DNA from: Macrolepiota albuminosa
Lineage: Eukaryota; Basidiomycota; Agaricomycetes; Agaricales; Agaricaceae
Assembly: GCA_027475525.1 (NCBI GenBank)
Contig: JAMWFC010000049.1
Location: 311,297-375,296, forward strand
DNA length: 64,000 nt
Reading direction: 5' to 3'
Numbering within the stretch: position 1 is the first letter of the stretch; every line of letters begins with the position of its first letter. The notes below the pieces were generated by a model. That model had not been told where the DNA came from. It saw nothing but the letters and a program-made list of their open reading frames with translations, and did not search any database. Made by a program: the position numbers and the translations under genes. This document shows positions 4,970-20,684 of the stretch, piece by piece.

Positions 4970-5171
4970 TTCTCTAGGGCAGCATTCCGCCAGAAACCCA
5001 CCTTTAAAAGGCAATCTTACCTCATTTTTCCAGTGCCTTGCCGCACTCCCCTTACAGTCAGAAACTACAAGACGCTTGCCACTAGCCAACTGTAGACGAT
5101 TATTTCTGATATACACTTGCCACTTGCCGTGGTCCCTTGCCAACTCTATTAATTCCCTTGCCACTCCCACT

Positions 5172-7172
5172 ATGAGCCAAGCACGACCCCTTCATATGCC
5201 CTTTCGAAATCACTTTGCTGCACCTAAATGGGATGAAACCCAACCACGCGAGTTACCACAGTACTTCCAAGAACTAGAGCTCCTTTTCCAGGATTGTGGT
5301 ATTACCGACTTTGCCCAAAGGAAGGATTACGCTATCCGTTATGTCTCCTATGACACGGCAGAATCTTGGACAGGTTTACCAGAATTCATCACCTTAGAGC
5401 CTGCGCTTGCCACCCCCCCAGTTCCCTTAGCACCTCGCCAACATAGCTATCAAGATTGGAAAACAGCAGTAATCAATTTATATCCTGGTGCAGAAGAATC
5501 TGCCCGTTACAGGCTTAGCGACCTCCAGCAGCTAGTGCAAGACACCTTTGCCACTAGCCTGCACACTCTTGGCACATTTTCTACCTATTACCGTGACTTC
5601 CAGCGCATCTCTAAATGGCTCCAGCAACATGGCAAACTTCACATAAATGAAGAGCGTCGCTTATTTCAGCAAGGTATTCCAACCTCCTTATGGACAAAAA
5701 TGGCACGTCGCCTAGAGATTCTCATGCCGACACACCATCCCGACGAGTTCTATGACATTGATCAGGTTTTTAAAGCAGGAAAATGGGTACTTGCCGGTAC
5801 AACCACTAGTGCCAACACTCTCAGTCCCCTTAGCACCTCCTATTCCCTTAGCACCTCTGAGCCTCTTAGCGCTCATTCTGAGGGTTTTTCTAGCGCTCCC
5901 ACGGTAATCCAAGCGCTAAGTGTTAGCGCCTCTGATGATTATAAAGACCTGGAAACTCGAGTTAATGCTGCCTTTGCCGCTGCCATGTCACCAATCGAAA
6001 ATAGGCTTGCCGCTGAATTGGCAAGTTACCAGCCCCAGTCGGAAGAACATATAGAGGAAATTTACTATTTTGGGCATGATCAGGACGCCAAGGAACCCCC
6101 TCAGCAGGAGTTTAGGGAACTAGCACGGCAGGAACGTATTGTGCAAATAGAGCAGGAACTGGCAAAGTTACGAGGAATTGCCGCACCAAAAACTACTCAG
6201 ACCCTTAGCGCCCCTTTGCCAACACTTAGCGCCACTTCTAGCGCGTCCAGCGCCAGCCTTAGCGCTGAATTTAGGGTGCCACTGGCGACGCAATCCATGG
6301 TTTTTCAATCCAAGCCTCAGAACACCTCTAACGTTAACTTAGCTCTTGCCGAGGCTGCCACTGCCGTACCCCTTAGCGCACCACCTAGCACTCATCCAGC
6401 AATGCTTAGCGCCTCTTCAATGCCTCCTAGCGCCTCCCTTGCCGCTCCTGTGAATGCTCAATCTGAAGTTCCCAACATTGCCGTCAATCTTGTTGTTATT
6501 GAGAACAGCTTCAGTGTTTCCCCTAGCGCACCTCTTGAATCCACCAGTTTACCCCCTAGCGCTCCACCAGATCTTGCCGCACCGCCTAGCACCTCCCTAG
6601 CCTTGCCTAGCGCCTCCCCAGAGTCTCTTAGCGCCTCCTGTGAAGACTCAGTCCTTTCCAATGTCAACTCTCGCACCATAACGTTAGCACCACCTACCAT
6701 GCCAGCACACAATAATCTGCCCACTAGCGACTTCCAGCCCTTAGCGCCAGCTCTTGGCGCTCCTCAGAAGCAGTATGGAGTAGACTCCTTGGCGACGTTG
6801 CAAATATTTGAGGTAGGAACTCAAGTTATTGATTATACTACAGCAACGCAAGTCACGGCAACAGTTGGAGACCTCTGCAGGATAGCTCCTAGCGCAAGCG
6901 CACCAACAGGCACTGTCTTAGCGCCTTCTGAGGATAAAGGCGCCACCATTAGCGCTACCTTTGGCGCTTCCAGCTTGGACAATAATCAGCACTACCATGA
7001 CCTTCCCGAACTGGCAGTTACTGGCGACGTTTCAACTTGTTGCCTCAATAGTTCCTCTACTGGCCCTTGCAGCACTACTCTTAGTGATCATAAAGCTTCT
7101 GAAGGACCGCTAAGGACCCCCAATAAGGTGCTAGTACCTGCACTTGCCGACGTTATTTCAGAAAATGGCTAA
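5172..7172 (+). CDS. gag: Gag-like protein of the LTR retrotransposon
   Basis: 666 codons from the ATG at 5172 (MSQARPLHMPFRNHF). The first ~230 residues are a helical retrotransposon Gag/capsid-like region (W-D-E at the start, FQELELLFQDCG, HSYQDWKTAVINLYPG, RLFQQGIPTSLW). From about residue 240 onward the protein is low-complexity, dominated by L-S-A/P-S-A-P repeats that follow the nucleotide word CTTAGCGCC or CCTAGCGCC. One helical island (about residues 260-350, ETRVNAAFAAAMS... and QEFRELARQERIVQIEQEL) looks like a coiled coil. I saw no CCHC knuckle and no enzymatic domain. The same words crowd the non-coding LTRs, so the repeats are probably selected at RNA or DNA level, not for the protein. 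Confidence 0.8.
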   Translation: MSQARPLHMPFRNHFAAPKWDETQPRELPQYFQELELLFQDCGITDFAQRKDYAIRYVSYDTAESWTGLPEFITLEPALATPPVPLAPRQHSYQDWKTAVINLYPGAEESARYRLSDLQQLVQDTFATSLHTLGTFSTYYRDFQRISKWLQQHGKLHINEERRLFQQGIPTSLWTKMARRLEILMPTHHPDEFYDIDQVFKAGKWVLAGTTTSANTLSPLSTSYSLSTSEPLSAHSEGFSSAPTVIQALSVSASDDYKDLETRVNAAFAAAMSPIENRLAAELASYQPQSEEHIEEIYYFGHDQDAKEPPQQEFRELARQERIVQIEQELAKLRGIAAPKTTQTLSAPLPTLSATSSASSASLSAEFRVPLATQSMVFQSKPQNTSNVNLALAEAATAVPLSAPPSTHPAMLSASSMPPSASLAAPVNAQSEVPNIAVNLVVIENSFSVSPSAPLESTSLPPSAPPDLAAPPSTSLALPSASPESLSASCEDSVLSNVNSRTITLAPPTMPAHNNLPTSDFQPLAPALGAPQKQYGVDSLATLQIFEVGTQVIDYTTATQVTATVGDLCRIAPSASAPTGTVLAPSEDKGATISATFGASSLDNNQHYHDLPELAVTGDVSTCCLNSSSTGPCSTTLSDHKASEGPLRTPNKVLVPALADVISENG

Positions 7173-7565: not shown

Positions 7566-8639
7566 TGATGAGCTCCCATTATAGATGACCACAGATAGCA
7601 CCAACACAAGCACCTCACATTGGCACACTGGGACCACCAGGAGCGGCACGTCTTAGCGCTCCAGAGGCTAATTTTTGCATATTTTTATGTTAATAACTCG
7701 CAGCTGGAGCCTCTAATTACTCCAGGACCACTCTTTATGGCACCATCTATTCTTAGCACTCCTCTTGACACCTTGCCGCACCTTGCCACTCACCCTTCAG
7801 GGCCATACACGGACACAGACACTTGGCACCCATGATGCTCTTAGCCGGTGGCAGTAGGAATGATGAAGTATTTTATGACAGACAGCTTGGAGTTTCACCT
7901 TAGCACCTGACGTCGCTTAGCTTCTTGCCGACTCAGACTGACAGCATGATTGTGGACTTCTTCACCATATAGTTTAATTCAGGGCATTTACTTACATATA
8001 AATACTTACTTTTTGTTAGTAGTACATAATCAATTTGGCAGTAGGGATTGTATCCCAACATTTTGGTCACCCTACGCAACAGACTACCTTTTTGTTGACC
8101 GTGTCGGCAAGGGGACTCTGCTTTAGTTCTCTCTCACCCTTTCTGTCTGCAATCTCTTAGTGTCTTGCAACTACGGCAAGGCATTTGCGCTTAGATCTGC
8201 TAAGCAATCTCGTCATTTTATCATCTCTTTTAGGTGCTAACACTTAGCGCCTCTTAGTGACCCCTTTACAGTGTCTCTTAGCGCCTTTCCTTGGCGACTC
8301 TCTCTCGCGCTCCTTAGCGCCTTTCCTTGGCGACTCTCTCTCGTGCTCCTTAGCGCCTTTCCTTGGCGACTCTCTCCCGCGCTCCTTAGCGCCTTTCCTT
8401 GGCGACTCTTTCCCGCGCCTCTTAGCACCTTTCATTGGTGATTTTTAGCATACTCTTGCCGCATTTTTGGGTCTTAAATAAGCGCCAATCACCCCTTTTC
8501 CTTACCACCAACCTCTTGCCTACTGTGCGTTCTCTGGGACCTGTCCAGGACTCTCTCCCATACTTAGCGCGTCCAAAGCTATATTGACTAAGTAGCTGTA
8601 CTAGTGATAGTGCATCTTAGCGCAATTTGGGCGTCATCA
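7566..8639 (+). repeat. 3' long terminal repeat
   Basis: 1074 bp, differing from the 5' LTR at one site found (8615 T against 4924 C). The 4-bp duplication ACGG follows at 8640-8643. Confidence 0.93.
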
Positions 8640-9529
8640 ACGGTCGGTTTGCTAGAACCACTCCGAGCCCTCCTGACAACGGCATGGCTTCCTCGGAGAC
8701 CGCCATCACAGACGAGCTCAGCAATCTTCGCGACTCCCACGCCGAACTTCGAAACATGATGCAGGATCTTTTAACAAGATTCAACACGGCGCCAGCCGCC
8801 GTGCCGCCGCCTCCAGCCGCGTCGGCGCTGCCTGCGGCGCCGCTGCCACCCGCAGGCGCGTTCGTCCCACCGATCGCCGGGCCCGGCCTCAACGGTGCGT
8901 CCTCTGCTGCTCCCCTTTCTCTTCGCTCTCGTTTCCCCGATGTCGACGCCGCGGTCATTGCGGCTATCATATCCCACGAGTTCAAGGCCGCGGATCTCCA
9001 CAAGCTCGACCCGTCGAACCGCGACAAGGAAACCGCCTACACGTTCAATGGCTCGACCAACCAGTTCGAAGTAAGCAACCGCTCGGCGAAGGAGTACAAA
9101 ACCCCATTCTCCGTCATTATCCCCCTCCAGTCCTATTTCGACATCCTGTCCTTCCACGTCAACGACGCCGCCGCCACTGGCGCCTTTTTTCGGTACACCG
9201 CCCACCTCGTGAAACTCGTGGCTGAGTACGAATGGGCGGCGGTATACGATTATCACGCCATATTCTTCAACCGTCGCCGCGCAGAGATGGCAGCAGGCGA
9301 CTACTCCCAATGGGGCCGGCGGGACAATGACCTCCTCTCCGAGCACGTCTACGCGCACCGCAAAACGGCGCCATCCAGGTCGAAAGCTTCGAAAAGCACC
9401 AGCAGCCCAAACGAGCCGTGCAGGAAGTTCAATGATGGGAGATGTCCGACCAGCCCGTGCCCGTGGGGCCGACCGCACACTTGCGCCACCTGTGGCAAGC
9501 CGGACCATGGCAAGCACCAGCACAAAGAT

Positions 9530-9597
9530 TAGCCAGGGGGCCGGGCGAGCCACTATCCCAGTGCCCTTCCGTCTCGCCCAGGCCAGCTCTCGGGCAC
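9530..9597 (+). promoter_or_regulatory. Candidate gag-pol stop-readthrough signal: UAG plus H-type pseudoknot
   Basis: TAG at 9530-9532 is the only stop between gag and pol, which share one frame. After a 6-nt spacer, stem 1 pairs 9539-9549 (GGCCGGGCGAG) with 9573-9584 (CTCGCCC-A-GGCC, one bulged A). Stem 2 pairs the loop segment GTGCCC (9561-9566) with GGGCAC (9592-9597). All listed pairs are Watson-Crick. A UAG followed closely by a pseudoknot is the arrangement of murine leukaemia virus gag-pol. Function here is inferred from sequence only; a stop created by point mutation is the alternative. Confidence 0.6.
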
Positions 9598-11989
9598 GTC
9601 TCCGTCTCTTGGTTTTTCCCCACTGGTTCCTCTCGTCGATAACCTTCCCCTCCCTCCCTCACGTCCTAACACGGACCCTCGCGCCAATACCCCGCTGCAC
9701 GACACCTCGCACCTGCCGCGCGTCGACTCCTCTCTAAACGCGCAGGCTTGGTCATACTACTTACGCGAGTACCCAGATTTCTCACTAGTACGTACTATTA
9801 ATCAAATAATACACGTTGGCGCCGACATCGGCTTTACGGGGGACCGTACGTTAAGTCAATCCTGCCACAACCTTAAGTCCGCGCTCGCAAACCCTGCAAC
9901 CGTTTCAGCGCTATCGTACGACATCGCCGAGCAGGTCGCCGCCGGGCGCACCTTGGGCCCCTTCTCGTGCCCTCCCTTCCCCAACTACCGCGCATCGCCT
10001 GTCGGGGCCGTCACGCGCAAACGCTCGAACAAAATTCGCCGCATACACCACCTCTCGTGGCCAGAGGGGAGCTCAGTCAACGACGGGATTGCAGACTCCG
10101 AGGCCTCGATCATCTACGATATGATCGATCGCGCTATACTCGACCTCGTTGCGTCAGGACCAGGCTCCTTGATGCTTAAACTCGATCTGGAATCTGCATT
10201 CCGCCACATCCCTGTTCGCCAGGACGACTGGCCGCTCCTGGGCTTCGAATGGGCAGGCGAATTCTACCACGACCTCGTCCTCGCGTTTGGTGCGCGCTCG
10301 GCGCCATATATATTCAATCTATTTGCCGAGGCTCTGCACTGGATCCTTCAGCGCAATATCCCTGCGCGTATTCGTCACTACCTCGACGACTTCCTCAGCA
10401 TCTTCCCTCCCCGCACCTCCGCTTCCCTCGTCCAACGTTCCCTCTCGTGGACCCTCGACCTCGGCGCCCAACTTGGACTCCGCTTCCAGCCCTCCAAGAT
10501 CGTCGGCCCGGATACCACGGTCGAGTTCCTGGGCCTGGAACTCGATTCGCGCACCATGGAAGTTCGACTCCCGGCTGACAAGCTCGACTTCTTACGGGAG
10601 CTCACGGCAGCGTGGCGCAAACGCAGAACCTGCACCAAGCACGACCTCGACGAACTAACTGGCTACTTGCAGTTTACCTCGCAGGTCATCCCCGCGTCGC
10701 GCGCTTTCATCCGGAGTCTTTACGACTTCTCAGCGTCGTTTCCCTCCGGCTCATTCACCAGACGCCACATCCCCGGCGCCGCGCGCCGCGACATCGATTG
10801 GTGGTGCACGGTCGCGCCGCTGTGGAACGGCATTCGCTTCATCTCACCGGACCGCCGCCGCCTCGACGTATTCACCGACGCCAGCGGATCGAAAGGGTTG
10901 GGGGGCCACTTTGGCGTAGAGTGGTTCTCAGCTCGCTGCCCTCGCCGCCTGCGCAAAGCGCACATTCAGGTGAAGGAGATGCTGGCCGTCGTGCAGGCCA
11001 TACTCCGCTGGGGGGAACAGTTTCGGGGCTGCCACGTTGTATTTCACGTCGACAACGAGGCCGTTTTCAACGCCATACGCAACACCTCCATACGATCCCA
11101 AGGAACCATGCGTCTCGTGAAGGATATGATAGCCCTGGCCTGTCGCCTCGACTTTTCTTTTTCTTCTGAGTGGCTCCCCTCTGCTGTTAATTCGATTGCT
11201 GACGCGGCGTCCCGTTTTGCTTACACTCGCATGTTCTCCATCGCTCCCTGGCTCAACCAGGCACCCACCTTGAAGCACCTCCGGCTTGGTGGTACGACCA
11301 CAACCCTCAGCACCCCAAAACCGTCGCTTTTTACCTTTGGCACGGGCTCGCGGCTAGCACGCGGCGCACCTACTCCACGGGACAACGCCAATTTATCCTC
11401 CACGTCCAACTCAACGGCCTCTACAACCCGGACGGTTCCATTTTCCCGGCCTCTCAGCGCGCAGTCCTGTCTTGGGTTGCGAGCCTCGGCCCCCGAGTTC
11501 AGCCCAAGACGATTAAGGCCTACTTGGCATCAGTACGTTCCCTCCATGTCGACACAGACCAACCCTTCACAGCCCTCGAATCTCCCGTGGTCCAGCGCCT
11601 GCTTCGCGGCATCAAACGCTTCCACGGCGAGCGCGAACGACGCCCAGTCCAGCCAATCACGCTCCCAATACTCAACGCGTTGCTCGCACAGCTTCAGCCG
11701 GGCACCACGCCAGGCCACACCTCAGTCTACGCAGCGTGCTGCCTCGCCTACTCCGGGCTCTTGCGGAGCGGGGAGTTCACGGTCGGCAAGCATGGCAAGT
11801 ACAACGCAAGCCTTAACCTTTCCCGCGGTTGCATCCAGTTCTTGCCCGACTTCGCCAACGCTACTCACGTTCGGCTCACCCTCCCAGCCTCCAAAACCGA
11901 CCCATTCAGGAAAGGCGTCACAGTCATGGCCGCCGCGGCGCCCGGCCGTCCCTCCTGCCCGGTCGCCGCCCTCAAGAGGCTGTACGTAG
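9533..11989 (+). CDS. pol: Ngaro-type pol: reverse transcriptase and RNase H
   Basis: Open without interruption from the codon after the gag TAG; the first ATG-less stretch argues for translation as a readthrough product. A Pro/Ser linker is followed by SYYLREYPDF and AEQVAAGRTLGPF. The RT palm comes next, with LMLKLDLESAFRHIPV and the catalytic box YLDD (10379-10390). RNase H follows with DVFTDASGSKG, KEMLAVVQAI (Glu) and VFHVDNEAV, closing around SEWLPSAVNSIADAASRF near 11220. Beyond about 11280 this frame is low-complexity and overlaps the recombinase frame, so the true product probably ends or shifts there. RT of this type copies the element RNA; no protease or integrase is present. Confidence 0.85.
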   Translation, partial: PGGRASHYPSALPSRPGQLSGTSPSLGFSPLVPLVDNLPLPPSRPNTDPRANTPLHDTSHLPRVDSSLNAQAWSYYLREYPDFSLVRTINQIIHVGADIGFTGDRTLSQSCHNLKSALANPATVSALSYDIAEQVAAGRTLGPFSCPPFPNYRASPVGAVTRKRSNKIRRIHHLSWPEGSSVNDGIADSEASIIYDMIDRAILDLVASGPGSLMLKLDLESAFRHIPVRQDDWPLLGFEWAGEFYHDLVLAFGARSAPYIFNLFAEALHWILQRNIPARIRHYLDDFLSIFPPRTSASLVQRSLSWTLDLGAQLGLRFQPSKIVGPDTTVEFLGLELDSRTMEVRLPADKLDFLRELTAAWRKRRTCTKHDLDELTGYLQFTSQVIPASRAFIRSLYDFSASFPSGSFTRRHIPGAARRDIDWWCTVAPLWNGIRFISPDRRRLDVFTDASGSKGLGGHFGVEWFSARCPRRLRKAHIQVKEMLAVVQAILRWGEQFRGCHVVFHVDNEAVFNAIRNTSIRSQGTMRLVKDMIALACRLDFSFSSEWLPSAVNSIADAASRFAYTRMFSIAPWLNQAPTLKHLRLGGTTTTLSTPKPSLFTFGTGSRLARGAPTPRDNANLSSTSNSTASTTRTVPFSRPLSAQSCLGLRASAPEFSPRRLRPTWHQYVPSMSTQTNPSQPSNLPWSSACFAASNASTASANDAQSSQSRSQYSTRCSHSFSRAPRQATPQSTQRAASPTPGSCGAGSSRSASMASTTQALTFPAVASSSCPTSPTLLTFGSPSQPPKPTHSGKASQSWPPRRPAVPPARSPPSRGCT

Positions 11990-12339
11990 AGCTTCCCCGC
12001 GTCGACAGCGCGCCGCTCTTTGAGCAGCCGGATGGTGGGGCCCTCTCGTACACCCTCTTTGTCAAAACAGTCCGCGAGGCCCTGGCCCTGGCAGGCGTCG
12101 ACCCAGGTCCCTACGCTGGCCACAGCTTCCGCCGTGGCGCAGCCTCAGCGGCAGCAGCGGCCGGGTACTCTGACTACGAGATCCAGCTCCTCGGCCGCTG
12201 GCGGAGCGACTCTTATAAACTTTATATTGAAAACGATCCTGTCCGGATACTCCACCTCTCCTCTCTCCTTCACTTGGCCTACCCTCATCTAGCCCCTTTC
12301 GAGCCTCCGGCACTGCGGGACTTCTCATCCATGGCTTGA
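11170..12339 (+). CDS. Tyrosine recombinase of the Ngaro-type element
   Basis: This frame (-1 relative to pol) is open from the codon after the stop at 11167-11169 to TGA at 12337. No ATG stands at its head, so the real start is unknown. The recognisable protein begins near 11281 with PAWWYDHNPQHPKT, then WHGLAASTRRTYSTGQ (core-binding domain). The catalytic part has the first Arg in YSGLLRSGEF, H-x-x-R in AGHSFRRGAAS, then LLGRWRSDSYKLYIE with Trp in place of the second His and the Tyr nucleophile. It would insert a circular DNA copy by crossover at TAA. Its last codon and stop lie inside repeat B1. A -1 shift at CCCAAAA (11314-11320) or reinitiation could give expression. Confidence 0.85.
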
Positions 12340-12513
12340 TCTTCGGCCTTTCTCTCTCTCACGAGGGAGAAACCGATCATCGAGAACGGTACCGGACTCA
12401 AGAAATCAAACTGTTTCTTTCCCGCATCACTGCGCACACCTTCATTAAGTTCTCTCTCTTGTTCTCCCTTTCAAGTTCCTCCTTCCCTACCAACACTAGC
12501 AGCTTCGCATTAA
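12334..12513 (+). repeat. Split direct repeat B1
   Basis: 180 bp identical by eye to 12908-13087. It starts within the last codons of the recombinase and shares TAA (12511-12513) with the start of A2. Confidence 0.93.
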
Positions 12514-12818
12514 TGGATCGGGCAAGTGAGTGATGGGGGTTGCCCGGGGTTAATTCGAGCGATTAGATTAGATTCCTTCACCTCGTCACATTTGCACATA
12601 CAACCCTGGCCACTGGCCACTCTTCCCTTTGGCCACTCCTCCCTTTGTCTCGCCGCCACCATTGTTACATCCCACTTATAAGCCTGCGAGCGCAAACATG
12701 AAGACTCCGTCGTCTCACACTGCGCTCGCAGGTAAGTTATTACTTACTCACGGTATCTCAGTCGTCTCACACTGCGCTCGCAGCGCCGCCCACAAACTAC
12801 GTCACGCGTCTTTTTCGC
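12511..12818 (+). repeat. Split direct repeat A2
   Basis: 308-bp copy of 3496-3803. It is followed by an 89-bp unique spacer (12819-12907) containing a short CCATT run, then B2. Confidence 0.93.
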
Positions 12819-12907: not shown

Positions 12908-13087
12908 GCTTGATCTTCGGCCTTTCTCTCTCTCACGAGGGAGAAACCGATCATCGAGAACGGTACCGGACTCAAGAAATCAAACTGTTTCTTTCCCGCA
13001 TCACTGCGCACACCTTCATTAAGTTCTCTCTCTTGTTCTCCCTTTCAAGTTCCTCCTTCCCTACCAACACTAGCAGCTTCGCATTAA
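12908..13087 (+). repeat. Split direct repeat B2, right end of the element
   Basis: 180-bp copy of B1 ending GCATTAA. Host sequence starts CAATTCG at 13088. Confidence 0.93.
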
Positions 13088-14946: not shown

Positions 14947-17900
14947 TCAGATATACGCAAAGAAACTGTCACGATCACCTTCCTTCCTCTCGACTGTTCC
15001 CTGTTTCGCAAGGAAGTCGCCTGCCGCCATTCTAATTCTCTCGCTGGTGAGAGGAAGCCTAAAGTCTTGGACATCTGTAATCCCAGAATCCTTGCGGGCA
15101 GATCTGAGTGCATAGCGGATGGCGAGTGCAACAGACGCGCCAAGGAACAACGGCGGCTCTCCTGTATAGTTGTCAATCACTTGTTATAATAAGATAATTG
15201 TATGTTCTTACCAATTCCTTTAGAACTCTGTGGAGATAGAAGAATGAATAAGTCAGTTTCCACATGGACAACCCGGAACAACATGATCTCCACCTTGATA
15301 CTACTCAAATTAGGCCACTCAGCGTCACGGAGAAGGGACACATTGAAGACTTGAGGAATATCAGAAAATCCTGGAAGTTTATATGCACCTGCACAGATAT
15401 AAGCATATGGTATAAATCGGGTAGATAAACACCAGCCTGGTCCCTGAGTGAAGAGAGCTCCATTATGTCGAAGCCAAAGTGACTCCTCGATTGTTGCCCA
15501 TCCTTGCCCTTGAGTAAACGCTCCTTCACTGCAAAGGGGTATTCCTGTCTGTAGGATTGACCAAGCAAAATAAGCTTACATTTGGCCGTAATCAATAGCG
15601 GGATTAAGAGATTTTCCGACGTCCATCTAGAGAAAATCCTTTATTCAGTAACGCGATATCGATAGCAGAGAACGCATCAGATTCACATGAATGTCGACGC
15701 GAAGGACTGTGTGATCTCCTGTCAGCGTATCAACTTCGACTTCTGTTGCCGCAACGCCCTGCGTAAAATACATGAAAAGATTTCCCGACTTCTTCATGTT
15801 TCTATAACGATTTTAAATCAAAGCAAGGGTCGGACCTATCTTGTTGACTCACCCCCATTCATACCCTAAACCTTCAGGTTTGAAATACCCAGTAGCACTC
15901 AATGACACCCGATCAGCCCAAGCTGCTGCTGCTAAAGTTGCTAAAGGAGCATCATTGCCTAATCTCTGTCGAAAAGGCTCCAATCTCCGGTTCAGTTCGA
16001 CACATGCATTGTGCACAGCATGTCCTTGAAGGTCGCTTCCTGCAGAGGCTGCAGTTGCGACAGCATCTTAAATATCGTGTTAATAACTGTAGGTGAGGTT
16101 CAGGCGTAAACCTACTAGGTACAATGTTTGAGGAGGATTCAGATGTGTATACAGCATCAAGGGGAACGTGTAATTCCTGAGCTGCTATTTGACAACATCT
16201 GTCTCATTGTAAGTAATCGTATTGTAAAGGAGCTGAGATGCTCACTTCGTGTAAAGGCCTAGATAAGGAAAATCGTTGAGGTGTATGCTGCACAGAAAAC
16301 AGGACAGCTTCATACCTTGACCCATTTCAGTCCCACCATGAGCAACGAGAACAGATCCATCCATATATATATGAACTAGTGCCGCTCCTTGGTTCAAAGC
16401 TCGGACACTACAGTAGATTCAGAGAGCAGTAAGAGACCGGTACTTCATCAATCTTACCCGAAACCAAGCTACAAATGCCAATGCTATGAGTGACTGTCTT
16501 GGTCTTCAGAAAACGGAATAACACTTACACCGAACTTCGTGGGCACTAACACCAGACCACGCTTTCTCCATCTATGCTCCTGAATTATGAGATCAGATGA
16601 CGTTGAAGACTCTTACAACTATCCTACAGACTTGATTGAAACGATCGACTTCAGCACGACGACGTTCATACTGGCTCGTGGCGCGACAATCTTGCAGGAG
16701 TCGCGGGACATGCCAATCGAGGACCTTGGCTCTAACCTGAGGAGAAGCACCAATGATGAAAATTTGGAAAGCACATACCTGTTGGTGATATGGTGTCTCT
16801 TGTCCTTCTTTGTATAGATTGATCTAGAGGAATCATGTAAAGATGGAAACGCTATGTAATAAGTAGACTCCGAACCTCCCGAATGTGATCAATATCCATG
16901 TTAAGACGATGAGCGATGACTTCGATATAATGTTCTGAGACGATCATGCCCTAACCAATGCGTAAGCGTAACAGTATTAGAATTATCAGACAATAAGGTC
17001 TTCACTTGAGGACCGCCGAAGCCTCTGAAAGCAGTGTTAGAAACTGTGTTGGTCTTACAACACCTCCCCCAAAGTTCAACGTGTGGGATGTAGAGACAAT
17101 TTTCTATGTGTGCAAGTGCACGATCGACAACTCCACCGCTTAGGTCAAGGGAGTAACCTGCATTGGCAAATAATTGAGCCTTCAATGCAACGATTTTCCC
17201 CTCGGATGTGAATCCGACTTTCCAATCTACAAGGAAAGGATGCCGTTGACCGCTTGTCTGAATGTCCACAGAGCGATCGAGCATGCAACGAACCGGCCTC
17301 TTCGTTTTCTTTGCAGCCAGAGCTACGATGGCGGCGAGCTAGAACCATGGTTAGTTGGAATCAATTGTTCGAATGGTGTAGATAATACTTGGGCTGCACG
17401 TGTTTCTTTTCCACCAAATCCACCGCCCATACGTTTTACTCGGGCTACGATGCGGTTTCTGGGTACTCCAGTGACCTATAAACAGATGAGTCGGAGGAAA
17501 TGCAGAGACATACAAGACTCTTCACCTGAGCAACCCATCGTTGACAATCAGCTAAACATTGTGTAGAAGAGAAGACCTCCATTTCACCGCTCTCGAATTT
17601 AGGTACCCTGAAAAGCGTAAAAAAAAGTAAGCCACTACCAACACAAAGTGTTAAACTCCTCATACGCGCGGCACGACATAGTTTCCAAGTAAAAGTGCTA
17701 CAAAAGAGTGTATAAGCTTAGTTTTGAAAGTATAGGTATTCCATACCTCCTGACCTCCCATACGTGTCGTCCCCTTGGCGACATGGTCCGCGCTTGCAAG
17801 GACCTCATCAACCTTATCCCCTCGCTCTATCCTCCTATCATATTGCGAATGGAATGACCTTCTCTCAATCGCCTCCTCGATCGTCAAAACAACAGGATAG

Positions 17901-20684
17901 ATATCTTCATAGACAACCTCGACTATCTGAGCCGCCCGATGCGCCTGATGTTTCGTCTTAGCTACGATCATCCCTATCGGCTGGCCACACGCAGTTACTT
18001 CATCTACAGCGAGGAAGTACTCATCAAGCGCTGCAGCGCCCCATATGTTTGCCTTGGACGAGGGAAGGTCGTGGTGAGAAATGAAGTCAAGCACGCCTTT
18101 CATTTCGAGGGCTTTAGTAGCGTCGACGGAGACAATTTTGGCGTGTGCGTGAGTAGAGAGGACGAGAGCGCCAAAGGCTTCGTTTTGTACTGAGGGCATG
18201 TCGTCCGTATAGACAGCTTCGCCAGTCGTGTGCTTGAGACCTGAGACGTGAGGTTCGGGTTTGCCGACTACTTCTTGAGCATATGGGTCCTGAAGTGATG
18301 TCAGATCCTTAATCAGCTCAACGATGTAATGGGGGGAAAAGCCTTACCGAGTTGTCCCGCTGACCAGTACTGGCTTGTCGATGGATGCTGCCGATAATAT
18401 CTTGTGAATCAGTCATAGAGCCGATGCCGGCGTCATGGAGAGGAATGTTAAGCTCCACAGAGACAGCATTCCAAAACTTGAACAAGAAACTCAGAGCAAG
18501 GGTCTTTCGATATGATGGCATCCCACCAGGCACATCGTAGCGTAAATCAACTTCTTCACCCAGAACTTCAAGCGCTCCTTCAAGCGTCGCGTAGTTGAAG
18601 ACCTTGCCTGCACATGCGCTTGATGATGAGCTACGGACGGTCATGTCATGTCAAAGAAAGCCGACGAACCAGTAACATATGCCTGTGTCTTTGGTGTAGA
18701 GATTGTCCAAGCTGCCATTCCACCATAAGCAAACTTGGCGTGTCTAATGAAGCCGTCTTCATCGACTCTCATCCCAAAACAACTCGTGACAATCGCAATG
18801 TCATCGTCTCTTCTTCTAGCCTGGAGACAGCTTATTTCAAGGCCTGATCGTCAAACGGAGACTCATACCTGTTTATACGCCTTCACAACTTCTCTCGGTC
18901 CTCCATCAAGAGGAACAACAATCTTTTCGATCACAGAAGCCTTCGGAAGTCTCGTCTTCCTATATCCCACAAAAAAGTCATCCATACCCAATTCTACGCT
19001 CCCTTCTGCTGTCCTCGCAACCACCTTCGCGCCTACCGCCACCCACACGGGATTAAGATCACTTATTGGAGATGCGGTTGCGATGTTCCCACCAACACTA
19101 GCGACGTTACGGATCTGCCACCCTGCAAAGTAGCGTAGCTGGGCACGGATGGCTTCAAGCGGTCCTTTAGCGTAGGTGTGAGTACCATTTGGGGCACGTA
19201 TCAGGGTTTGGCAGAGGGTTTCAAGTTCTGCGAGGGGAACGTTGGCACCGAAGTGGAGTGAGGGGCGGGCGGGGCTAGGGAGGGAGATAGAAAAGAGTTC
19301 AGGAATATCGGATATATAGATGCATATCGGGTATTTTTGGGATTTTAACTACAAGTTCGTGATATTGAGCTGGATTCCTTTGTGATGATGAGGGAAGGCT
19401 AACCTTGACTTCAATCTGGATTTCGCTACTTCCGCCAACAAGCTTGACATCAGGGGAGGCCTGAAGAATATCTATGAGTTGAGTGAGGGTAGTAGGACGG
19501 AGCCATATGCGGTCTTCGTTGCCATACATAAGTGGCTTGAATATATGCTTGGATAGAGCAGGAGGAAAGATGAGTTCGGACCCGGGCTTGTAAGGGCGGA
19601 AAGTGAAGCGAGGGAACCAAGGATGTTTATTTCCTTTGTCACAAGAGGGAAGTTGACAGCAGTCGGGTCGTCCGCATCCCTTTGGTGTTGTAGATGTAGT
19701 TTTCAGCACTTGACTCTCTTGTGTAGAGATTGGCGCGGTCCTCCCACTTAAACCTGCGACTGGATCAATAGGTGGCACAGGAGTTTCTTGTACAGACAGC
19801 GCTGGCAATGAGACTAGCATTTGTCAGAAGAAACTCGAGATATGACAGACAAGACGCGTACTATCTGTGCTCAACTCAGACGAGTCTGGCTTTCCGGTAT
19901 ATGTTTTGCAGCAATCAGCAGATACAGCTTCTCCTGCATCTATGTTGGCTGCCGCATAGTTGACTGGAACGACAAAGTCCTTATCTTCCAAAGTACTTCC
20001 AGCTGCTATGGCATCAACACAATCAGAAGCGAATGAGAGTGATAGATCTACCTTGTGCTTGGGTAAGGTATTCTCCCACAAATGTCTTTGCTGTGTCAAG
20101 TATGGTTTTGTAACCAGTGCAACGGCATAGATTACCATCTAGTGCGCCTTTAAGCTCGACATCGTCGACGGTTAGGTGACCTAATTTCGCAGGATCAGAA
20201 TACGTGGTACGCAAGAGGGCATAAAGGGACATGATAATCCCGGGCTAAAATCGAGATGGATTCCAATAAGATGGTCCAAGTAGTTTGAGATTATACTCAC
20301 TGTACAAAAGCCACATTGGCTTCCACTCATCTTCCACATTCTTTCTTGCAATGAATGAGGGTTATCTGAGTTGCCCAAACCCTCTATAGTGATTACGTGT
20401 TTCCCGTCTATGCTCACGAGCGGTGCGAGGCATGCATTCACTGCCAGATGCTGCAGTATTCCTGTACGCGGATGTTTACTCTGTATAACAACAGTGCACA
20501 CCCCGCATCCACCTTCCCCGCACCCCAGTTTTGTCCCAGAGAAACCAGGGCCTTGGGATCGTATGAAATCGAGAAGAGTTGCATCGGGATCGATTTCTGA
20601 TGCATCGAGAGCAATGCGCGTGCCGTTGAGATAGAAAAGGATGTTGGGGGACGCGACGAATGCGAAAGGAGGGGTGAGAACCAT
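14947..20684 (-). CDS. XDH: Xanthine dehydrogenase (purine hydroxylase I)
   Basis: Oxidises hypoxanthine to xanthine and xanthine to urate, with FAD and Moco. The ATG is at 20684. The first 2Fe-2S ligands are in [12 protein letters not shown], the next two pairs in SQCGFCT and [11 protein letters not shown]; the exon join [14 protein letters not shown] is clean. The Cys-rich linker [14 protein letters not shown] leads to the FAD domain ([24 protein letters not shown]). The Moco half follows with the [15 protein letters not shown] domain, [14 protein letters not shown] and the molybdopterin loop [10 protein letters not shown]. It ends with [10 protein letters not shown], which carries the conserved catalytic Glu, and the stop at 14947. 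Many short introns break the 3' half (14947-18650), and I did not resolve all exon ends there. No in-frame damage was seen in the parts read. It stands head-to-head with the cofactor sulfurase. Confidence 0.93.

Follow-up and report, generated by a model that had tools for sequence, protein, structure and literature searches.

Stop codon readthrough between gag and pol is already known as a kind of recoding from the gammaretroviruses. In murine leukaemia virus (MLV) it occurs at a frequency of 5% and the stop is decoded by an ordinary tRNA, according to the accessible part of PMC2194720. Among fungal elements, the gag-UGA-pol junction of Tca2, with its predicted pseudoknot, directed no readthrough in S. 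cerevisiae (same part of PMC2194720), and we regard this failure as the main warning for the readthrough reading developed below. In fungal Ngaro elements, the tyrosine recombinase (YR) lies either in the reverse transcriptase-RNase H (RT-RNase H) frame or in a shifted one (PMC3783388, accessible part), and the terms 'stop codon' and 'read-through' occur zero times in the main text of that survey. As far as the accessible parts of the open-access literature go, we found no report of readthrough or of gag stops in Ngaro, DIRS or YR elements, and no description of how Ngaro elements set their Gag:enzyme ratio. By the same literature, YR retrotransposons are an apparently new setting for this kind of recoding, which agrees with the sequence-only reading of the locus, to which the arrangement was unfamiliar in Ngaro-type elements.

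Here we describe a locus of Macrolepiota albuminosa that probably uses programmed UAG readthrough in a Ngaro-type element to yield a Gag-RT-RNase H protein, with a first stem (stem 1) as the main stimulator and a probable pseudoknot.

The gag-pol junction and its element

The window, that is the whole stretch of 64,000 nt that was analysed, carries one copy of this element on its forward strand, to which all coordinates refer unless stated otherwise. One frame carries both gag (from 8627, or from the first ATG at 8684, up to 9532) and pol (9533-11989), and the TAG at 9530..9532, the proposed readthrough codon, is the sole stop between them. It is followed by a 6-nt spacer, CCAGGG (9533..9538), whose sequence varies among copies and whose length is constant. 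The 5′ arm of stem 1, GGCCGGGCGAG (9539..9549), pairs with a 3′ arm (9573..9584) made of CTCGCCC (9573-9579), a bulged A (A9580) and GGCC (9581-9584). Within the stem 1 loop, GTGCCC (9561..9566) can pair with GGGCAC (9592..9597), located 7 nt past stem 1, to form stem 2. Stem 1 contributes 11 Watson-Crick pairs and stem 2 six, a total of 17. These positions and pairings had been proposed by the sequence-only reading and agree with the sequence to the base; its statement that gag and pol form one frame with a lone TAG also holds, as no other stop occurs up to 11989.

Taken alone, stem 1 (9539-9584) folds better than expected (z = -3.02, with 3 of 200 dinucleotide shuffles equal or better). The wider 9530-9600 fold is ordinary (z = -0.74; 41 of 200 shuffles equal or better) because the region is GC-rich, a caveat already raised with the original proposal. 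An Rfam scan gave no family at threshold and one sub-threshold match, on the minus strand (9442-9480). The lowest-energy fold of the window copy includes pairing of the spacer with downstream sequence; this outer stem was above a mononucleotide shuffle (z -3.5), yet it was rejected, as no spacer register beats stem 2. The decisive evidence is comparative, namely that stop, spacer length and stem 1 are kept across sister copies.

The surrounding features fit the architecture of a Ngaro-type YR retrotransposon: gag, RT-RNase H, YR and split repeats. The gag product (8684..9529, from the first ATG to the last sense codon; the ORF spans 8627 to 9532) had no match in a Pfam scan, and ends two residues past a C-terminal CX2CX4HX4H zinc knuckle (9482-9523). 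In the same scan the product of the pol frame, open from the TAG (9533..11989), matched RVT_1 above the cut-off (E 2.1e-12, residues 211-337) and RNase H models below cut-off only. The recombinase frame (11203..12339) overlaps pol in -1 relative to it; its match to Phage_integrase (E 0.0021, 18.3 bits) falls below the curated cut-off of 27.1. An HSFRRG and a late tyrosine, which we take to be the tyrosine recombinase active-site motif, are visible in this frame, and several Pol relatives carry the source names integrase/recombinase xerD. None of the three scanned proteins matched a methyltransferase, a DDE integrase or a protease in Pfam; DIRS elements have a methyltransferase.

Ngaro elements carry split direct repeats in the order A1-ORFs-B1-A2-B2. 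Downstream of the recombinase frame, the B1 (12334..12513, 180 nt) and B2 (12908..13087) repeats are 100% identical and bracket A2 (12511..12818, 308 nt). An A1 partner was sought in the window copy and not found; it was seen in one copy only, on contig C71, where it lies 5′ of gag (L026:233-540) and is 100% identical to A2. The window copy ends abruptly on its left at about 8640, near 36-nt tandem repeats (8241-8456), with no detectable A1. It is identical to the C71 copy over 4,181 nt, up to the fetched end, and the left flanks differ, which suggests recent movement of the TAG-bearing form; this comparison covered the left flanks. Two other pairs of loci, L031/L032 and L042/L043, are each identical across the whole fetched stretch including the flanks, and we take them for segmental duplications or duplicate assembly, not separate insertions. 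Elsewhere in the window, an ORF at 5076-7172 encodes 698 aa with a long Ser/Ala/Pro-rich tail, its N-terminal part presumably resembling the Gag of another retroelement, and a minus-strand ORF at 17660-18199 presumably resembles part of a xanthine dehydrogenase.

The protein search of the 100-Mb genome gave at least 77 matches. Junctions could be read only in those fetched loci whose Gag match extended at least to residue 294, which gave 24 distinct junctions; with the decayed copy L076, which keeps its TAG, there are 25. The sequence-only reading had pointed to sister copies for persistence of the stop, and there it is indeed kept: 23 of the 25 junctions carry TAG and two carry TGA. Among the first 24, the aligned stop is TAG in 21 and TGA in L054. 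That reading had also named a sense codon at this position as a refutation; TAG or TGA is found nearly throughout, and the most distant copy, L051, has ACT there followed by TGA one codon later. In the decayed copy L046 the Gag frame has slipped, and a pattern search still recovers TAG, 6 nt and stem.

Twenty-two copies were aligned (alignment A1; L046 and L051 were dropped and L076 was left out). TAG occupies its column in 21 of 22 rows of the stop-anchored codon alignment and ranks second of 167 codon columns, behind a tryptophan. Two codons of the stem, GGC at +3 (91%) and GGC at +17 (86%), also stand near the top of this ranking, although glycine has four codons. Since the median identity at fourfold sites is only 0.41 (22 copies, 231 pairs), close descent does not explain the conservation of the TAG. 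The spacer measures 6 nt, free of gaps, in all 22 copies. A search of the genome with the pattern of the signal returned 36 sites, against 14 with a reversed control, and the 23 sites that deviated from the pattern at no more than one position all proved to be junctions of this Ngaro family.

Downstream of the TAG, none of the 22 copies has an in-frame stop within 60 codons (the other two frames have one in 13/22 and 20/22), and the gaps near the stop measure 3 or 9 nt. Codons +1 to +22 combine the lowest dS (0.48, versus 1.05 in gag and 0.73 and 0.83 farther on) with the highest dN (0.36), values pooled over 12 chosen, partly overlapping pairs; this would be as expected for an RNA element laid over a loosely constrained protein stretch. 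The locus thus shows what is looked for in a readthrough element, an in-frame stop conserved across diverged relatives with coding constraint on both sides.

Stem 1 and the putative pseudoknot

Pairing of stem 1 was counted over the 21 distinct rows of alignment A1. In the 11-bp stem, 90.4% of the cells are paired, a value equalled by 1 of 500 shuffles. When the stem is extended to 15 pairs the figure is 83.3%, and none of 500 shuffles is equally high on any of five measures, while slid control versions of the extended stem pair at 24-46%, far below the actual register. Both sides have changed at 9 of the 15 pairs (24 such cells), and a tree from which the first 30 codons past the stop had been excluded requires at least 22 double changes, unpaired rows being treated as missing. 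Against random synonymous codons, a null that ignores shared ancestry, the pairing reaches z = 11.95, and the summed fold energy lies below all 300 synonymous nulls. The structure is also well located: over 18 copies, one per 85% cluster, a fine scan (46-nt windows, 3-nt steps) ranks the window starting at +7 first of 400, 5.0 SD from the mean. The site did not stand out in a coarser scan (54-nt windows, 18-nt steps).

Not all copies contribute equally. In L007 and L039 the fold of the stem 1 region does not improve on the copy's own synonymous nulls, in L005, L019, L020, L023 and L025 it improves on them by about 1 SD or less, and in L020 a 9-nt deletion extends into the 3′ arm. Several of the weak-stem copies are decayed. 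The covariation that the sequence-only reading had proposed to look for is therefore present in stem 1, and the stem breakage it had set against it is confined to a few copies with weak stems. A downstream structure is conserved at a fixed distance from the stop, as is characteristic of readthrough elements, and from these comparisons we regard it as close to certain that stem 1 is real.

The evidence on stem 2 is less uniform. Its register is paired in 63.9% of the cells (9 of 500 shuffles equally high), and it ranks first among the 300, 247 and 198 registers of 4, 5 and 6 bp that join spacer or loop to downstream sequence, stem 1 columns left out. This first rank holds with or without the discovery copy, L001. 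When L001, L003 and L004 are all removed, stem 2 is still the best loop-downstream register, and in none of the 200 synonymous nulls does any loop register reach its level. Moreover, the tree requires 10 or more double changes in stem 2.

These last results are the ones that weigh against a plain stem-loop stimulator, a reading in which readthrough takes place and stem 2 arises by chance from a C-rich loop and glycine codons. We find this doubtful, but several observations speak for it. In a free best-duplex test, stem 2 does not exceed the synonymous null (z -0.7; 119/500). If helices that share columns with stem 1 are included, stem 2 comes 38th of 1,891, 51st without L001 and 86th without L001, L003 and L004. 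Two of its five measures are ordinary, 136 and 317 of 500 shuffles being as high, and the geometry is tight, with an L3 that measures 7 nt throughout the 22-copy alignment and has to cross a stem of 11-15 bp. On balance, the pseudoknot is likely. Of the H-type pseudoknot originally proposed, stem 1 is thus retained together with the standing of stem 2 as best loop-downstream register, while the free duplex test and the overall rank lend it no backing.

In the mechanism that we favor, most ribosomes would terminate at the UAG and release Gag, and a minority would read the UAG as a sense codon and produce Gag-RT-RNase H. The trigger for this decoding would be the structure, which begins precisely at nt +7 relative to the stop. 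Its main stimulator would be stem 1, which has one bulged A and 11 bp, extended to as many as 15 in some of the copies; a pairing of 4-6 bp between the stem 1 loop and bases 7 nt farther 3′ would probably close an H-type pseudoknot. The anatomy of the sequence, its conservation, the covariation of stem 1 and the constraint on the frame are observed here; readthrough, its level, the tRNA used and the formation of the pseudoknot are what we infer. The observations support the original interpretation that Pol arises through stop readthrough.

Other routes to Pol and the recombinase

Could Pol be made separately, from a promoter inside gag, by reinitiation or by internal ribosome entry, the stem having another role? 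The Tca2 junction, inactive for readthrough in yeast, did show promoter activity there, but Tca2 Pol nonetheless comes from a gag-pol RNA (both in the accessible part of PMC2194720). In the present family, 11 of the 22 copies have an in-frame Met at most 72 codons from the stop, but the positions of these Met codons vary between copies. In five copies (L001, L005, L006, L017 and L020) the first in-frame Met is found 188-214 codons past the stop, 196 in the window copy, near the start of the RVT_1 match, and yet the frame is open from codon 1. Furthermore, a fixed 6-nt distance between stop and stem is unexpected for a promoter. Separate production of Pol is in our opinion improbable. Reinitiation at an AUG was itself rejected on the five copies that have no in-frame Met before codon 188, despite the nearer Met of the 11 others.

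Relatives in other species bear on a further route. The Gag search returned 64 homologues, and those with a named source come from Termitomyces or Tephrocybe, so that the host is probably an agaric close to these genera. The CX2CX4HX4H knuckle is present in 23 of them, and every one of these terminates exactly two residues downstream of it; the other 41 lack the motif and are partial, truncated or diverged. As these are protein records, the identity of the stop codon that follows is not visible in them. The Pol search gave 147 relatives, and among the 120 listed 19 carry a Gag part (within P0068-P0164, from Termitomyces, Agrocybe, Mycena and others). Two of these, P0126 (Trametes) and P0137 (Collybiopsis), are fused models that run from the Gag knuckle into pol, and they count against the readthrough reading; there may be no stop there, or an intron. 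A search for relatives in viral contigs found none.

The remaining 17 of the 19 Gag-bearing models among the matches listed, mostly from other fungi, contain neither the complete knuckle nor the stop and end their Gag part at varying points, as they would if the stop were spliced out to give a Gag-Pol mRNA. In the alignment, a GT (-103) and an AG (+18), each kept in 18 of the 22 copies, flank an in-frame stretch of 123 nt that could be removed in this way. They are, however, the sole GT and AG kept in at least 18/22 over the aligned stretch; the GT sits in the AAG TTC of a conserved Lys-Phe, unlike the fungal splice donor consensus, and the AG falls inside stem 1. The stretches skipped in the gene models differ from one another, as if picked to avoid a stop, and the models without full knuckle and stop are perhaps annotation artefacts. 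We consider splicing very unlikely and rejected it for want of a credible conserved donor. Finally, the caveat attached to the sequence-only reading, a TAG that is a mutated CAG in one copy, is excluded, as is any other decayed sense codon there, by the stops kept in nearly every sister copy.

Readthrough of the UAG would leave the recombinase to be accounted for. Its frame is -1 to pol in all six copies in which both motifs were found (20 were tried), and no Met was seen in the examined stretch ahead of its conserved start. In some copies pol stays open across the recombinase frame (open frames of 911-920 codons). By eye, no conserved slippery heptamer was seen before the YR frame in the six comparable copies. 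Expression of the recombinase seems to require another recoding step or else splicing.

The same genome contains more distant YR families, and four of 28 matches at 25-32% identity were fetched. In three (L056, L058 and L059) Gag ends at a TGA and pol crosses that stop in the +1 frame; in the fourth (L057) the Gag end is similar and the gag frame is broken. The first three represent, as we read them, a different solution to the same gag/pol problem. It is conceivable, and we put it forward tentatively, that an agaric Ngaro lineage independently evolved an MLV-like UAG readthrough pseudoknot together with a -1 step that leads into the recombinase frame. A single mRNA would then supply Gag, Gag-RT-RNase H and a recombinase fusion as three products in graded amounts, whereas the distant YR families overlap gag and pol in +1.

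Comparison with described systems

Among described Ngaro elements, those of fungi (PMC3783388) share gag, RT-RNase H, YR and terminal repeats with the present one, but the accessible part of that survey describes no gag stop with a downstream structure. The Cafeteria Ngaro (PMC8547959) has a Gag-like ORF1, an RT/RNase H ORF2 and a YR ORF3; three ORFs are described, with nothing on ORF2 expression in the part accessible.

Tca2 of Candida albicans is close in another respect. It is fungal, and has an in-frame gag stop, a spacer and a predicted bulged-stem pseudoknot. It differs in its UGA, its purine-rich 8-nt spacer and in being an LTR retrotransposon (PMC2194720, accessible part). After Tca2, for which no readthrough could be demonstrated, the M. 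albuminosa family would provide a second test case from fungi. Its more than 20 diverged signals, which show compensating changes, form a natural series; some of its copies seem to have moved recently, and the genome also contains relatives with a +1 overlap for contrast.

In conclusion, the junction resembles that of MLV in its overall plan, with gag-UAG-pol in frame, a short spacer and a downstream pseudoknot (PMC2194720 and PMC3835772, accessible parts), which in the Ngaro element is putative. The MLV spacer is purine-rich (PMC2194720), whereas the 6 nt of the Ngaro element are of mixed composition. Moreover, its stem 1 has a conserved bulge and matches no Rfam family at threshold, and its host is a fungal YR element without a protease or DDE integrase match in Pfam. 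With this family, the convergent evolution of stop readthrough in retroelements becomes testable.
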